Below are positions 1,956 to 7,508 of a DNA stretch of 7,508 bases, piece after piece (within the stretch, counting starts at the first letter, position 1; each line of letters starts with the position of its first letter). Position numbers and translations under genes: made by a program. The notes beneath the pieces are model-generated. The model was not told where the DNA came from. It searched no databases and saw only the letters and a program-made list of their open reading frames with translations. The stretch spans positions 1-7,508 of the forward strand of contig JAJKJG010000011.1 in assembly GCA_021154065.1 (NCBI GenBank), given 5' to 3'. The DNA comes from Methylobacterium sp. (GTDB lineage: Bacteria; Pseudomonadota; Alphaproteobacteria; Rhizobiales; Beijerinckiaceae).

Positions 1956-1959
<4 letters not shown>

Positions 1960-2405
1960 GGCCGAGCGTCCGGGTTGTCAACCTGAGTGATGTCGATCCG
2001 CTTTAGCGATGCTGGAACTCTCATCCGCTCATCGGATGAGACTAAAACCGTGCACTCACACTTAAGTGCCGTGGCTACATGAATCGCGTCGGGTGTCTTG
2101 TTACCAAGACGGGCACGGATTTCGGCGCTATGGCGCAGAATCGCTCGATCAATGGGAACGACCTCCAGAATCTCATCCGAAGTCAGGAACTCGTCGTAAA
2201 TTCTGGCTAGTCTAATATTACCAGATTTTAGCGGGCCAACCAGCACTTCAGAAAGGGTTAACTCGCTGGTGTACAGACGCATGAGCTCTGATGCCGCGTT
2301 CTCAATAAGAAACAGAAGCTTCTGATTATCACCTTCAATAAACTGGATGACCACGTTCGCATCCAGATAGGCGGATGTCGGAGTACCAAGTCTCACGTGT
2401 CCCAC
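1956..2405 (-). CDS. PIN-domain ribonuclease, VapC-like toxin
   Basis: 149 residues (146 if the second GTG is used) forming one PIN domain, the metal-dependent RNase fold of VapC toxins. The acidic residues are in the expected order: Asp15 in YLDANVVI, Glu53 in LTLSEVLVGP, Asp106 in TPDAIHVATA, and Asp125 in VSSDERM. VapC toxins cleave tRNA or rRNA and are held inactive by a partner antitoxin; the target here is unknown. The gene follows the small antitoxin and overlaps it. The GTG at 2405 gives a 13-base overlap; the GTG at 2396 overlaps the antitoxin stop as GTGA. Neither has a strong ribosome binding site, so coupling to the antitoxin is likely. Base composition is about 50% G+C (one sampled 60-base line is 42%), well below the yej genes, which suggests transfer. 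The last few codons return to high GC. No catalytic residue is missing, so it is probably active. Confidence 0.88.
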
Positions 2406-2629
2406 TCGTCGCGCAACGCCCTAATTCGCGCGACAGCCTCTTCTGAGGTAACTGGTTTGATTTTTCCTTCAGCGCGCAAACGGCGCGCTTCTTCCAATAT
2501 CTCAGATAACGAGCGCTGCGGTTCGTCGTTCGGCTCTATGATCAGCCTAACGGACTTCACCGGACCGAGCTCCTCTCGGATGTCGTCCGGCAGATTCGAC
2601 ACAGGATAACGCTCCCGAACGATCGCCAT
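2393..2629 (-). CDS. Small VapB-like antitoxin of the PIN toxin
   Basis: 78 residues, starting MAIVRERYPVSNLPDDIREE. I do not recognise a named family with certainty. The N-terminal third reads like a short beta-rich DNA-binding or dimerisation segment (VKSVRLIIE). The rest is charged and helical (LSEILEEARRLRAEGKI, then a C-terminal helix ending RDEWDT), as expected for an antitoxin tail that wraps the toxin. Its place directly before and overlapping a PIN toxin gene is the main argument. The start is the ATG at 2629, with GGAG six bases upstream. A TTG at 2641 in the same frame would add four residues, but the AGGA before it is only about three bases away. The gap to the yejE stop is 28 bases, too short for a normal promoter, so an autoregulated promoter would have to lie within the yejE 3' end. 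Base composition is lower in GC than the flanks. Confidence 0.75.
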   Translation of the reverse strand: MAIVRERYPVSNLPDDIREELGPVKSVRLIIEPNDEPQRSLSEILEEARRLRAEGKIKPVTSEEAVARIRALRDEWDT

Positions 2630-2635
2630 CGTCAG

Positions 2636-2639
2636 CTCC
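2636..2639 (-). promoter_or_regulatory. Ribosome binding site deciding the antitoxin start
   Basis: The minus strand reads GGAG, six bases, then ATG at 2629-2627. This favours the ATG over the upstream in-frame TTG at 2641. Confidence 0.6.
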
Positions 2640-2657
2640 AAATTCCTTTAGCACACC

Positions 2658-3845
2658 TTACCCGAATGTCTTTCGCGGGTCGAACGCATCCCTGACCGCT
2701 TCCCCAATGAAGATCAGGAGCGACAGCATGAAGGCGATGACGAAAAAGCCGGAAAGGCCGAGCCAGGGGGCCTGGAGGTTGGCCTTGCCTTGCGCCAGGA
2801 GCTCGCCGAGCGAGGGGGAGCCGGGCGGCAGGCCGAAGCCGAGGAAGTCGAGCGAGGTCAACGTCGTGATCGAGCCATTGAGGATGAACGGCAGGAAGGT
2901 GAGGGTCGCGACCATCGCGTTCGGCAACAGGTGCTTGAACATGATCGTCGCGTCGGTCAGGCCGAGCGCCTTCGCGGCGCGGACGTATTCGAAGTTGCGG
3001 CCGCGCAGGAACTCCGCCCGCACCACCCCGACGAGCGCGACCCATGAGAACAGGAGCAGGATGCCGAGCAGCACCCAGAAGCTCGGCGTGATCACGGCCG
3101 AGATGATGATGAGCACATAAAGCGAGGGGATCGAGGTCCAGATCTCGATGACACGCTGGAACAGGAGATCGGTCCAGCCGCCGAAATAGCCCTGCACCGC
3201 CCCCGCCGCCACGCCAATCAGCGAGGAGATGCCGGCGAGGATGAGCCCGAACAGCACCGAGATGCGGAAGCCGTAGATCAGCCGCGCGACGACGTCGCGG
3301 GTCTGGTCGTCGGTGCCGAGCCAGTTCTGCTCGATGTCGCGGCAGCCCGTGCCGCCGGAACGCTCGGCGATGGCGCGGCACTGCTCGTCCTTCAGCATCC
3401 AGGTCGGCGGCGCCGGCGCCGGCACCGGCAGGTCGAGGTTGTGCGTGTTGTGGGAGAAGCGGACCGGCGGCCAGTACGCCTTGCCGTTCTCGGCGATCTC
3501 CTTGGCGATCACCGGATCGCGGTAGTCGGTATTGGCGAGGAACCCGCCGAACTTCTCCTCCGGGTAGTCGAAGAACACCGGGAACAGCCACTCGCCTTTG
3601 TAGTGGACGGCGATCGGCCGGTCGTTGGCGATGAACTCGGCGAACAGGCACAAGACGAACAAGATGAGGAAGATCCAGAACGCCCAGTAGCCGCGCCGGT
3701 TGGCCTTGAAGTTCTGCCAGCGCCGCCGGTTGATCGGCGAGAGCCTGATGAAGCCTTGCCGCGGCAGCGGCGGCGCGACCGGTGCCGCCGCCGGCGAGGC
3801 GACCGGGACGTTGTCGAGCTCGGGCGGCTTCGCCAGATCGTTCAC
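2658..3845 (-). CDS. yejE: YejE, inner-membrane permease subunit of a peptide ABC importer
   Basis: 395 residues; pairs with YejB to form the transport channel. The order is: a Pro/Ala-rich cytoplasmic tail (1-30); a basic patch with SPINRRRWQNFKANRRGYW (36-54); TM1 about 54-72; a large periplasmic loop (73-185) with the family wording FIANDRPI, GGFLANTDYRDP and NWLGTDDQ; then the transporter core, with hydrophobic segments at about 193-217, 241-275 and 310-330 and a last one at 365-381. The EAA loop that docks on the ATPase is RAAKALGLTDATIMFKHLLPN (289-309), and the C-terminus GEAVRDAFDPRKTFG is typical. It is longer than my recollection of E. coli YejE (about 340 aa): the extra length is the N-terminal tail and a loop insert (about 138-172) containing PVPAPAPP and two cysteines, Cys156 and Cys168. 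The start is GTG, one base after the yejB stop, with GGGAG seven bases upstream. Confidence 0.95.
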   Translation of the reverse strand: MNDLAKPPELDNVPVASPAAAPVAPPLPRQGFIRLSPINRRRWQNFKANRRGYWAFWIFLILFVLCLFAEFIANDRPIAVHYKGEWLFPVFFDYPEEKFGGFLANTDYRDPVIAKEIAENGKAYWPPVRFSHNTHNLDLPVPAPAPPTWMLKDEQCRAIAERSGGTGCRDIEQNWLGTDDQTRDVVARLIYGFRISVLFGLILAGISSLIGVAAGAVQGYFGGWTDLLFQRVIEIWTSIPSLYVLIIISAVITPSFWVLLGILLLFSWVALVGVVRAEFLRGRNFEYVRAAKALGLTDATIMFKHLLPNAMVATLTFLPFILNGSITTLTSLDFLGFGLPPGSPSLGELLAQGKANLQAPWLGLSGFFVIAFMLSLLIFIGEAVRDAFDPRKTFG

Positions 3846-3846
3846 C

Positions 3847-4962
3847 TCACGTCTCCCGCGCCTCGAAATCGATGCGCGGATCGATCCAGGTGTAGGTCAG
3901 GTCCGAGATCAGGTTTACCAGGAGCCCGAGAAGCGAGAAGATGTAGAGGTTCGCGAACACCACCGGATAGTCGCGGTTGACGATCGACTCGAACGACAAC
4001 AGGCCGAGCCCGTCGAGCGAGAAGATCGTCTCGATCAGGAGCGAGCCGGCGAAGAAGGCGTGGATGAAGGCGCCGGGAAAGCCCGCGATGACGATCAGCA
4101 TGGCGTTGCGGAAGACGTGCCCGTACAGCACCCGGCGCTCGGAGAGGCCCTTCATGCGCGCGGTGAGGACGTATTGCTTGCGGATCTCGTCGAGGAAGGA
4201 GTTCTTGGTCAACAGCGTCGAGGTCGCGAAGGCGCCGAGCGCCATCGCCACGATCGGCATGGTGATGTGCCAGAGGTAATCGGCGATCTTGCCCCAGAGC
4301 GAGAGCTCGTTCCAGTTGTCGGACCATAGCCCCCGCAGCGGGAAGAGCTGCCAGAACGAGCCGCCGGCGAAGAGCACGATGAGCAGGATCGCGAACAGGA
4401 AGCCCGGGATGGCGTAGCCGACGATGACGACGGCGGAGGTCCAGATGTCGAAGGCGGAGCCGTCGCGCACCGCCTTGCGGATGCCGAGCGGGATCGAGAT
4501 CGCGTAGGACAGCAGGGTCATCCACAGGCCGAGCGTGATCGACACCGGCAGCTTCTCGCGGATCAGCTGCAGCACCGAGACGTCGCGGAAATAGCTCTTG
4601 CCGAAGTCGAAGCGGGCGTAGTCCCATATCATCTTGGCAAAGCGCTCATGCGCCGGCTTGTCGAAGCCGAACTGCTGCTCGAGCTGGCGGATGAACTGCG
4701 GATCGAGCCCCTGCGCGCCGCGGTAGCGCGACGACGTCGCGTCGGCGCCGGGTCCCTTGGGTCGCGCCCCGGCGCCGCCCGCGAGGTCGCCGGATCCGCC
4801 TGAGACGCGCGCCGACGCGCCGGAGTCGATGCCCTGCAGCTGCGCGATGATGCGCTCGACCGGCCCGCCAGGCGCGAACTGCACGGTGATGAAGGACAAG
4901 AGCATGATCCCGAACAGCGTCGGGATCATCAGCAGCACGCGGCGGGCGATGTAGGCGGGCAT
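3847..4962 (-). CDS. yejB: YejB, inner-membrane permease subunit of a peptide ABC importer
   Basis: 371 residues, close to the usual YejB length. [20 protein letters not shown] leads into TM1 (about 9-30), followed by [11 protein letters not shown], a hallmark of this permease class. Residues 43-86 form a Gly/Ala-rich, low-complexity periplasmic stretch ending [12 protein letters not shown]. Then come [11 protein letters not shown] and [11 protein letters not shown], and the permease core with hydrophobic segments at about 140-160, 174-200, 228-250, 285-312 and 338-355. The EAA docking loop is near [21 protein letters not shown] (266-286); the C-terminus [13 protein letters not shown] is characteristic. 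The ATG lies seven bases after the stop of the second yejA, and one base separates its stop from the yejE start. The ribosome binding site is weak (GAAGG about 12 bases upstream), so coupling to yejA translation is likely. No anomaly seen. Confidence 0.96.
3853..3857 (-). promoter_or_regulatory. Ribosome binding site of yejE
   Basis: The minus strand reads GGGAG, seven bases, then GTG at 3845. It overlaps the last codons of yejB and supports the GTG start. Confidence 0.65.
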
Positions 4963-4969
4963 TGGCCGC

Positions 4970-7072
4970 TCACGCCTTCCCGATCGCTTTCGCCTTCTCG
5001 GGATCGTACCACCACGTCCCCGGCGCGCCGGAGGCGTATTTCGGCCGCGTCGCGGGCCGCGAGAACATGTCCCAATAAGCGACGTATTCCTCCGAGCGGA
5101 ACCACATCGGGATCATGTAGCGGCCGGCGCGCAGCACCCGGTCGAGCGCGCGTGCCGCGACGTTGAGCTTCGCCCGCGAATCGGCTTGCGTGATCTCGCC
5201 GATCAGCGCGTCGACGGCCGGATCGGCGATGCCGGCGATGTTGCGCGAGCCGGGCGTCGCGGCGGCCTCCGACGAGAACACGATCCGGAGCGCATCGCCC
5301 GGCGTCATCGCCCCGCCGAGCGCCATCGAGGCCATGTCGAAGTCGAAATCCTCCATGCGGCGCCGGTATTGGGCCGCGTCGACGATCCGCGAGCGCGCCT
5401 CGATGCCGAGCCGCTTCAGGTTCGCCTGAAAGGGCTGCGTATGCGGCTGCAGCGACGCCTGGTAGTCGAGGAACTCGATCTCGAACGGCTTGCCGTCCGG
5501 CAGCTTGAGGACGGTGCCGTCGCGCTTGCAGCCGGCCTCGCGCAGGAGCGCGTCGGCGCGTCGCAGGAGGTTGCGATCGCTGCCGGAACCGTCGGAGACC
5601 GGCGGCACGTAAGGCTCGCCGAAGACCTCGTCCGGCACCTTGCCGCGGAACGGCTCGAGCAGGCGCAGCTCCTCGGAGCCGGGCGGGCCCACGGCCTTCA
5701 TGTCCGAGTTCTCGAAGAAGGAGTGCAGCCGGTGGTAGAGGCCGAACATGATGTTCTGGTTCGTCCATTCGAAATCGAAGGCGAGCCCGATCGCCTCGCG
5801 GATGCGGCGGTCCTTGAACATCTCGCGGCGGGTGTTGAAGTACCAGCCTTGCGTCGGAACGGCGCCGGCGCGGTCGATGACCTCGCGCTTGACGCGGCCC
5901 TCGCGGAAGGCCGGGAAGTCGTAGCCGGTCGCCCAGGTCCGGGAGGTGAACTCCTCGTGGTAGTTCATGACGCCGGACTTGAACGCCTCGAATGCGACCT
6001 GCCGATCGCGGAAATACTCGTAGCGCACCTTGTCGAAGTTGTTCTGGCCGAGGTTCACCGGCAGATCGCGGCCCCAATAATCGGGCACGCGGTCGAACTC
6101 GATGAAGCGCCCCTGCTCGAACCGCCCGACTTTGTAGGGGCCGGAGGCGAGCGGCGGCTCGAGCGTCGAGGCCTCGAAGTCGCGGTCCCTCCAGTAGGCC
6201 TCCGAGAACACCGGGTTGCCGCCCACGATGAGGTGCAGGTCGCGGCTGCGTTTCGGCGACAGCTGGACCTTGAGGACGTCGTCGGACTCGGCCTCGGCCG
6301 CCAAGACCTCGCTCAGCACCGAGCGATAGCTCGGGTGGCCCTTGGTCTTCAGGATGTTGATCGAGAAGGCGGCGTCCCGCGCCGTCACCCGCGATCCGTC
6401 GTGGAACCGCGCTTCGGGACGCAGGAGGAAGCGGTAGGTGAGCTTGTCGGCCGACCAGCGCACCTTGTGGGCGAGGAGGCCGTAGAGCCCGTCCGGGTCG
6501 TCGCCGGAACCGGCCATGAGGCTGTCGAAGGTCGCGTCCATGCCGGCCGCGCCGTCGCCCTTGAGAACGAAGATGTTGAGCGTGTTGAAGGTATCGAAGT
6601 TCTGGTTGCCGGCGCCGCGCTTGATCTGGAGCGCGAGCGTGCCGCCCTTAGGGGCATCCGGGTTGACGTAATCGAAATGCTTGAAGTCGGCGGGGTATTT
6701 CAGCTCGCCGAACGTCGAGAGCCCATGCGATTCGGTCTCGGCATCCGTTGCTGAGAGAGCGTCGCGGCGAGGGCCAAGCGCGGCAAGCGCGACGGTGCCG
6801 GCAAGAAGGGCGCGGCGCGAAACCCCTCTCCCCGCAAAGCGGGGAGAGGCCGACTCGCCCCTCGGGTCTTGCCTTCGGCAAGCCCAAGGACAGGCTCCGC
6901 CGAGCGGGTGAGGGGCCGGGGGCGCGAACTCCTCAGGCCCCTCACCCCAACCCTCTCCCCGCAAGCGGGGAGAGGGGGTTCGCTCGCGGCCGCGGGCCAT
7001 ATCCTGCATCGGTGTTCCCTCACCCCTGCCCCTCTCCCATGCGGGAGAGTGGGATCTGAGCTTGTCCGTCAT
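4970..7072 (-). CDS. yejA: Second YejA-like periplasmic peptide-binding protein, N-terminus expanded by repeats
   Basis: This is an extracytoplasmic solute-binding protein of family 5 that should deliver peptides to YejB/YejE. From the ATG at 7072 it has 700 residues, about 90 more than I expect for a YejA. The extra lies at the front: residues 1-82 are Arg/Gly/Pro/Glu-rich and encoded by palindromic repeats. A twin-arginine-type signal follows (SRRALLAG at 85-92, hydrophobic to about 100, likely cleavage after LSA at 106-108). The mature part has [20 protein letters not shown], then [22 protein letters not shown] and a C-terminal [12 protein letters not shown], all typical of the family. The 7072 start overlaps the previous gene's stop as ATGA and has GGAG seven bases upstream. 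Alternatives are ATG at 7009 (GAGG eight bases upstream) and 7000. No in-frame ATG, GTG or TTG lies between the last repeat and the signal. The family call is secure; the start and export efficiency are not. Confidence 0.92.
6821..6917 (-). repeat. Palindromic repeat unit 1 (minus orientation, two hairpins)
   Basis: The unit begins GGCCCCTCACCC at 6917 and ends GGGGTTT near 6821. It holds a perfect 11-bp stem (6825-6835 with 6839-6849, CCTCTCCCCGC/GCGGGGAGAGG, 3-base loop). A second hairpin lies at 6864-6885: a 6-bp stem CTTGCC/GGCAAG, plus three more G-C pairs past a one-base bulge. It is longer than the other two units because about 55 bases separate head and palindrome. It abuts the Ser-Arg-Arg codons of the export signal. 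Confidence 0.75.
6936..6978 (+). repeat. Palindromic repeat unit 2
   Basis: Head GGCCCCTCACCCC followed by AA, then a perfect 12-bp stem (6951-6962 with 6965-6976, CCCTCTCCCCGC/GCGGGGAGAGGG, 2-base gap). Its head is the exact reverse complement of the head of unit 1 over 12 bases (6906-6917 and 6936-6947). Confidence 0.8.
7017..7053 (+). repeat. Palindromic repeat unit 3
   Basis: Head CCCTCACCCC (7017-7026), identical over ten bases to that of unit 2, then TG and a shorter stem (7032-7038 with 7043-7049, CTCTCCC/GGGAGAG, loop ATGC). The head read on the minus strand also supplies the GAGG placed eight bases before the candidate ATG at 7009. Confidence 0.7.
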
Positions 7073-7508
7073 CGCGGCGCTCCGGTCTTCGCGGCCTTTT
7101 CGGCATCGTACCACCAGATCGTCGGGAAGCCCGAGCCGCCGTATTCGGGCAGGAGCTTCGGTCTTGCGAAGCGGTCCCAGCGAGCCGTCAGGGTTCGATC
7201 CGAGTAGAATTGCGGCACGACGTAGTCGTGGTGGAGGAGCACGCGGTCGAGCCCCTTCACGGCGGCGACGAGCTCGTCTCGGTCCTTCGCGAAGATGACC
7301 TTCTCGATCAGCGCGTCGACGCCCTCGTCCTTGATGCCGGCGGTGTTGCGCGAGCCCTGCCGGTCGGCGGCCGCGGAGCCCCAGAACTCGCGCTGCTCGT
7401 TTCCCGGCGACAGCCCCTCGGCCCAGAGATCGGTGGTCACGTCGAAGTCGAAGCTGCGCAGCCGGTTCTGGAACTGCGCCGCGTCGACGGTGCGGATCGA
7501 CATCGTGA
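7069..7508 (-). CDS. yejA: First YejA-like peptide-binding protein, C-terminal fragment (5' end outside the window)
   Basis: The frame is open to the window edge, so the ATG at 7503 is an internal Met, not the start. About 146 codons remain, covering the C-terminal lobe of a family 5 solute-binding protein. It is clearly paralogous to the neighbouring full-length protein: both share, in the same order, VDAAQ, FDFD, GSRN, AGI, VDALI, LDRVL and a final WWYD..EKA. Many other positions differ, so this is an old duplication rather than a recent copy. The GFPTIWWYDAEKA ending is typical of YejA. Tandem yejA genes ahead of yejB are known in Brucella and other Hyphomicrobiales. Its TGA stop overlaps the next ATG (ATGA at 7069-7072). 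A different peptide preference from the second protein is likely but cannot be seen here. Confidence 0.92.
   Translation of the reverse strand, partial: TMSIRTVDAAQFQNRLRSFDFDVTTDLWAEGLSPGNEQREFWGSAAADRQGSRNTAGIKDEGVDALIEKVIFAKDRDELVAAVKGLDRVLLHHDYVVPQFYSDRTLTARWDRFARPKLLPEYGGSGFPTIWWYDAEKAAKTGAPR
7080..7083 (-). promoter_or_regulatory. Ribosome binding site supporting the coupled start of the second yejA
   Basis: The minus strand reads GGAG, seven bases, then the ATG at 7072 that overlaps the previous stop codon. It favours this start over the in-frame ATG at 7114 inside the preceding gene. Confidence 0.5.

Follow-up and report, generated by a model that had tools for sequence, protein, structure and literature searches.

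Composite palindromic elements have probably been inserted between the coupled ATG of yejA2 and its Tat signal in the 7,508-nucleotide stretch that was analysed (the window), where they are best read as a translated, nearly neutral passenger. The open frame, the lack of nearer starts, the common start and Shine-Dalgarno sequence, the in-frame cases in relatives and the pattern of selection were all computed. Translation of the leader itself is strongly suggested by these sequence comparisons. Tolerance of the leader by the Tat system would follow from the conservation of the protein, and we infer Tat export, removal of the leader together with the signal and mobility of the element.

The yejA2 leader and its orthologues

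The minus strand of the window carries an operon of the ABC peptide-transporter type. The gene yejA2 (4970..7072, minus strand) encodes a family 5 extracellular solute-binding protein of 700 aa from the coupled ATG, matched PF00496 at 1.6e-60 (Pfam) and was 70-84% identical to the 120 homologues listed, several of which are named "microcin C transport system substrate-binding protein" in their source records. The upstream ORF is open at the window edge and is present as its 3' end (7069..7506, minus strand); no family was found for this fragment in Pfam, and its direct repeats with yejA2 suggest that it is yejA1, a paralogue. Its TGA (7071-7069) overlaps the yejA2 ATG at 7072 (ATGA). Also on the minus strand are two permeases (3847-4962 and 2658-3845, PF00528) and a double ATPase (331-1959, PF00005). 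The stretch from the second permease to the ATPase (1956-2641, minus strand) holds a PIN-domain protein (PF01850, 5.1e-19) and an 82-aa small protein with no Pfam match, which possibly form a VapBC-like toxin-antitoxin pair inside the yej operon, a presumed pairing. The sole Rfam match in the window, to mir-328 (E 0.64, 25.4 bits vs. a cut-off of 70), was sub-threshold and was taken as chance. In the plasmid collection 126 records matched and none reached 80% query coverage; those listed cover 16-25%.

The yejA2 frame is open on the minus strand from 7114 to the stop at 4970 and, in agreement with the frame, stops and coordinates of the original prediction, passes through three GC palindromes to SRRALLAG. 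The coupled ATG (7070..7072) is the most likely start and is preceded by a putative Shine-Dalgarno sequence, GGAG, at 7080..7083. Codon-by-codon reading gave two alternative in-frame ATGs, at 7009 and 7000 (6998..7009), and a TTG at 6964 (6962..6964); between this TTG and SRRALLAG (6820) the same reading found no in-frame ATG, GTG or TTG. The residues preceding SRR number 84 from ATG 7072, 63 from ATG 7009, 60 from ATG 7000 and 48 from TTG 6964, so that with ATG, GTG or TTG starts the leader has at least 48 residues, none of these codons lying closer to SRR than TTG 6964. The predicted length of about 60-85 residues before the export signal thus agrees with the values from ATG 7072 and ATG 7000; both of these starts are present, and ATG 7009 and TTG 6964 are two in-frame starts that it had not named.

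Tat signal peptides carry an (S/T)RRxLL motif, a hydrophobic stretch and an A-x-A-like cleavage site. All three were recognised by eye, with the n-regions of orthologues as a guide, in a 24-residue segment of yejA2 that begins with SRRALLAG (6749..6820, minus strand) and that we take to be a Tat-type signal. In an AlphaFold model of YejA2 (35 sequences) the leader was without secondary structure at a pLDDT of ~28, a result given little weight because the whole model is weak (mean pLDDT 56.5).

Three half-units make up the repeat cluster. P1 (CCCTCACCCCTGCCCCTCTCCC..GGGAGAG, plus strand) spans 7017..7049 with a palindrome at 7032-7049 and reads as 11 residues on the minus strand; P2, in plus-strand orientation, spans 6938..6976 with a palindrome at 6951-6976 and reads as 12 residues; P3 with an extra stem, in minus-strand orientation, spans 6823..6915 with a palindrome at 6825-6849, and its minus-strand reading ends in a 10-residue peptide. 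The palindromes of P3 (11-bp arms, loop of 3) and P2 (12-bp arms, loop of 2) bound a composite element at 6817..6983, whose 19-nt inverted arms (6817-6835 and 6965-6983) are 95% complementary; that of P1 is weaker (7-bp arms, loop of 4). The three palindromes had been described as read in one phase. This is true of their 5' arms, all of which read TCT CCC (S-P), and fails for the 3' arms, which are read in three phases (ERG, GEG and GRG) because the loops differ in length.

Taken alone, the number of stems is not extreme with respect to chance: with arms of at least 8 and loops of at most 6, the window holds four, two of them in the cluster, and 40 first-order Markov shuffles of the window held a mean of 2.0 and a maximum of 7, with at most 2 per 260 bp. 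What goes beyond chance is the common sequence of the palindromes and their dispersed copies in relatives.

Orthologues of the junction were compared using 25 loci from Microvirga-titled records, picked for an ATGA-coupled start. Comparison with these loci, which lack the cluster, supports translation of the leader: in 25/25 a GGAG-like Shine-Dalgarno sequence precedes the start and the twin arginine follows within 8 codons. The window and the two relatives G001 and G002 have the same Shine-Dalgarno sequence and ATGA, followed by the insert, and all 28 sequences have GGAG, GAGG or AGGA within the 16 nt preceding the ATG. With a looser coupling score that also counted TTGA and GTGA, 74 of 111 sequences were coupled, 35 were uncoupled and 2 were without the motif. 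A stricter script placed ATGA near RR in 26/34 Microvirga-titled loci; among its eight misses at least L034 and L075 look truly uncoupled and some others are script mis-picks, L003 and L004 being coupled in the comparison of 28 sequences. The leader of G002 has a single ATG, GTG or TTG, namely the coupled ATG, which stands 63 codons ahead of SRR; it also has one CTG, 51 codons ahead of SRR. G001 carries a P3-like half-unit where the window has P3, and its leader contains TTGs at 51 and 26 codons ahead of SRR.

Among the 120 listed homologues, the eight best (75-84% identity; DNA seen for two, the rest read from protein only) all have N-termini extended by repeat-like peptides. The extension is short in P0004 (~20 aa), and the called start of P0006 is an internal GTG of the leader. 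The remaining 112 measure 600-633 aa and are without a long leader; one of them, P0047, has a short repeat-like stretch.

Over 585 codons the mature part of yejA2 gave dN/dS values of 0.20, 0.17 and 0.19 for three pairs, and it is under purifying selection. For the leader, over 62 codons compared between G001 and G002, the value was 0.91, which argues for a tolerated passenger; the frame appears to be kept and the sequence to drift in a nearly neutral way.

Other repeat-like peptides were seen at or near this site. In the Methylobacterium loci L046, L050 and L051 another such peptide (VIASEARQSR..., VIASEAKQCR...; L051 less clear) lies in an open frame at the yejA1-yejA2 junction, with an ATG four codons before RR in L050 and L051; L046 lacks an ATG and has a GTG 19 codons ahead of RR. 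In L067 (Hansschlegelia zhihuaiae) and L113, known from protein reading alone, PPSPLQGEG and PPSPHAGEKG stand ahead of the SRR of the yejA orthologue.

A dispersed palindromic repeat family in two relatives

In the genomes of G001 and G002 the repeat unit is a half-unit of the form CTCACCC-(stem)-CTCTCCC..GGGAGAG, often arranged as an inverted pair. Palindromes of this form numbered 94 in G001 and 96 in G002 (1 and 0 for reversed-pattern controls), and half-unit matches numbered 60 and 48 in the two whole genomes (controls 0), so that in these relatives the unit is, like a REP, a short palindrome with many copies per genome. The composite core of the G002 yejA2 leader has three exact copies in G002, in the leader and at two other places, and five matches there with up to 3 mismatches; none was found when it was searched in G001. 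In 42 composites the outer palindromes are 102-187 bp apart and, with the 19-nt arms of the window, these have the terminal inverted repeats and 70-300 bp body of a MITE. The inserts in yejA2 resemble this dispersed composite family in sequence. One G002 locus (L131, G002:C1:412760-413073) holds an array of six palindromes in ~310 bp.

GTAG and CGTC are described as the tags of the two REP superfamilies (PMC3733652). Within 5 nt of either stem foot GTAG was found in 0/148 palindromes, and CGTC lay within 5 nt of a stem foot in 7/148; with the tags absent or rare, the unit was not filed under either class. We rejected the idea of an element designed for translation, since the 42 composites had a mean of 3.3 open frames of 6, no more than shuffles (3.9 of 6). 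Open frames are thus common in the elements, and openness in one genome proves little.

The original prediction had suggested a genome-wide search for the repeats within coding frames, and repeats so placed were found in G001 and G002. Coding scores were scanned in 80 repeat-bearing stretches, which covered 88 clusters. In 5 of these both sides are coding and joined by an open frame, so that few clusters lie inside genes; in 24 both sides are on the same strand and separated by a stop or frame change, 4 lie between opposite strands, 41 have one coding side and 14 neither. The leaders of yejA2 (L201) and of a VWA protein were counted by the scan among the 24 frame-change junctions. Open-through clusters are carried by GcvPB in G002 and G001 (NF003346, 661 and 654 bits, cut-off 441), by IleS in G001 (TIGR00392, 770 vs. 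a cut-off of 621), by PutA in G002 (NF008869, 1226 vs. a cut-off of 747) and by an IolC-type protein in G001 (NF047869, 585, just under the cut-off of 600).

For comparison of each gene 41 genomes were searched and at most 30 loci were taken. The GcvPB insert is present in G001 and G002 and in 0/22 other aligned loci (4/28 omitted where script anchors failed), the PutA insert in G001 and G002 and in 0/26 others (2/30 omitted), and the IolC insert in G001 and in 0/9 others (4/14 omitted), the IolC-type gene of G002 giving a weak match only. A UdgX fusion (TIGR03915/TIGR03914), for which 6/10 loci could be aligned, has an insert in one, G001, and G002 has 18 nt between the aligned parts. Repeats of this form are therefore read in frame inside conserved protein genes (IleS, GcvPB, PutA, the IolC-type gene and the UdgX fusion, in G001 and/or G002), and the comparison with Rickettsia palindromic elements made in the original prediction is sustained as a likeness. 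In both G001 and G002 the VWA protein (weak NCBIfam match to MadC) has repeat-bearing leaders after which no start codon follows, so that yejA2 is not the sole N-terminal case. Compared with their host genes, inserts evolve faster in IleS (dN/dS 0.74 vs. 0.25, 49 codons) and GcvPB (0.55 vs. 0.17, 37 codons).

Proposed origin and reading of the insert

In the reading that we prefer, a REP/MITE-like family dispersed in the lineage would have inserted into the first codons of yejA2. The start lies inside the upstream stop (ATGA), which leaves no spacer to absorb an insert, so that an insert there would have to be translated; the surviving insertions and later rearrangements would be only those that keep the frame open. 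The product would bear, before the twin arginines, an extension of some 60-84 residues that is rich in Arg, Gly and Pro and probably unstructured. Since this extension precedes the cleavage site, it would be lost along with the signal peptide, hence its low cost and its drifting sequence. More generally, the elements would enter many sites, and within genes only in-frame, tolerated copies would last. A translated long leader, as predicted, is upheld on computational grounds by the lack of nearer starts, the conserved coupled start, the same layout in relatives (with no other ATG, GTG or TTG in G002) and the selection on the mature part. With internal start codons in the window and in G001, the coupled ATG is there the most likely rather than the certain start of yejA2.

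These start codons give rise to the strongest of the alternatives, itself unlikely, by which translation begins at ATG 7009 (or 7000) with a Shine-Dalgarno sequence donated by P1. Only the P2-P3 composite would then be translated, as 60-63 residues, and P1 would be ordinary intergenic DNA. The GTGAGGG of P1 does lie a few bases upstream of ATG 7009, and the close homologue P0006 was called from a comparable place; G002, however, has no such ATG, GTG or TTG, and the coupled Shine-Dalgarno sequence and ATGA are common to the compared leaderless Microvirga loci.

Almost equally doubtful is a function for the repeats, either in the mRNA, as hairpins controlling the ratio of YejA1 to YejA2, or in the protein, as a leader peptide that tunes export, with selection for in-frame reading. 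The strong predicted RNA fold of the cluster (6800-7090, minus strand; z -6.3, with 0/200 shuffles equally stable) would fit such a function, as would the occurrence of more than one type of repeat-like peptide at this place in the eight best listed homologues and of a different one at the same junction in the Methylobacterium loci L046, L050 and L051. Against it stand the leader dN/dS of 0.91, the dissimilar leader sequences of close relatives and the 112/120 listed homologues without a long leader, all of which bear on the peptide and less on an RNA role.

An assembly error or a silenced or broken gene, outcomes named in the original prediction as refuting it, is very improbable: GC-rich palindromes are a classical cause of sequencing errors, but comparable layouts occur in the G001 draft, in the single-contig genome of G002 and in other homologue clusters, and the mature part has a dN/dS of 0.17-0.20. 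Equally improbable is initiation at a non-standard codon beside SRR, with the palindromes as 5' UTR; N-terminal repeats of predicted proteins may be mis-annotated 5' UTR, and many N-terminal REPs are possibly extragenic by way of a downstream start (PMC3733652), but the distance from SRR back to the nearest ATG, GTG or TTG is 48 codons in the window, 26 in G001 (TTG) and 63 in G002.

With its coupled start and its lack of any other ATG, GTG or TTG, G002 offers a clean test case for true N-terminal translation, and the yejA2 leader raises the question of what n-region length Tat tolerates.

Known elements and the IleS loop

In-frame palindromes in proteins are known; what is new is the repeat family, its position in front of a Tat signal and the recurrence in the IleS loop. 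The palindromic elements of Rickettsia are of ~105-146 bp, in frame inside conserved protein genes and tolerated (PMC2229807, PMC3733652). The elements described here share that position inside conserved protein genes. They differ in that their hosts have genomes of 4-5 Mb and group with Microvirga, in that they are GC-rich, in that the CGTC tag of RPE-4/RPE-6 is mostly absent (the two being likened by description, with the tag alone compared) and in that one insert precedes a Tat signal. Intragenic GTAG and CGTC REPs and REP dimers have been reported from conserved genes of free-living bacteria, tRNA synthetases included, and N-terminal cases were discussed there (Di Nocera et al. 2013, PMC3733652); here, in contrast, the tags number 0/148 and 7/148, and the N-terminal case of G002 has no downstream ATG, GTG or TTG. 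In Yersinia the MITE YPAL/RU-2 is reported to be fused in frame and is part of the signal peptide of YPO1552 (Delihas 2007, PMC2229807). There too a mobile palindrome adds to the N-terminus of a putative exported protein, but the Yersinia element supplies a part of the signal peptide, whereas the yejA2 insert precedes an intact Tat signal. Br-REP1 and Br-REP2 of Bradyrhizobium, likewise REP elements of Hyphomicrobiales, are described from intergenic regions and 3'-UTRs (PMC5082802) and have another consensus (Br-REP1, CCGGAATCTCGAGATTCCGG). In the portion available of a REP survey (PMC12306157) the terms "intragenic" and "in-frame" are absent. In the literature outside most subscription journals we found neither this repeat family described for Microvirga nor palindromes described for the Hyphomicrobiales IleS loop. 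The same literature yielded neither a mostly untagged composite family inside genes nor repeats that precede an intact Tat signal and are followed, in one relative, by no further ATG, GTG or TTG.

The loop in question in IleS, the isoleucyl-tRNA synthetase, lies after NTPQWF. In 6/30 genomes read it holds perfect DNA stems of at least 7 pairs (G001, G002, where the stem is decayed, G016, G021, G023 and G025), and no such stem was found in the loop of the other 24. Loops without stems are mostly of 10-17 residues, with longer ones in G011 and the G229 type (L214, L229). The repeat sequences differ among the loops, which makes several independent entries likely. Repeat-like peptides of several unrelated families occupy the loop in many of the listed proteins P0122-P0241, a query-biased sample known as proteins alone, among them sequences named Terrarubrum flagellatum, Methylocystis, Methylosinus and Hyphomicrobium denitrificans; the Terrarubrum flagellatum IleS is identical to that of G021 across the query region. 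A crude repeat pattern flagged 77/118 loops, missing some and shortening others (2 of the 120 proteins listed gave no loop). An estimate of prevalence from this sample was rejected, the proteins having been picked by similarity to an inserted query.

At the place of the insert the aligned parts of IleS meet, in the solved enzyme 8c9e, with three residues between them. An AlphaFold model of IleS from Terrarubrum, made with 26 sequences, had a mean pLDDT of 72.6; in it the greater part of the insert (residues 484-526) has a pLDDT below 50, is without secondary structure and lies between helices 470-477 and 530-540.

Evenly balanced in our judgement is a broader proposal, that Hyphomicrobiales bear an RPE-like load of several unrelated palindrome families, repeatedly in frame at a few permissive places such as the IleS loop and the yejA junction. 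As part of it, and at the same midway level of belief, the IleS loop would have been entered independently in several genera, and the repeats of the yejA junction would be translated as a Tat n-region. If such a load is real, translated repeats would continually supply proteins with new segments, and culturable bacteria would allow the preference for insertion sites to be studied. The IleS loop is a recurrent natural experiment in the entry of repeats into an essential gene. Another route of loop growth was seen in P0152, whose IleS loop contains near-tandem copies of the segment GFIAMDKPFANASGKPEAD itself.
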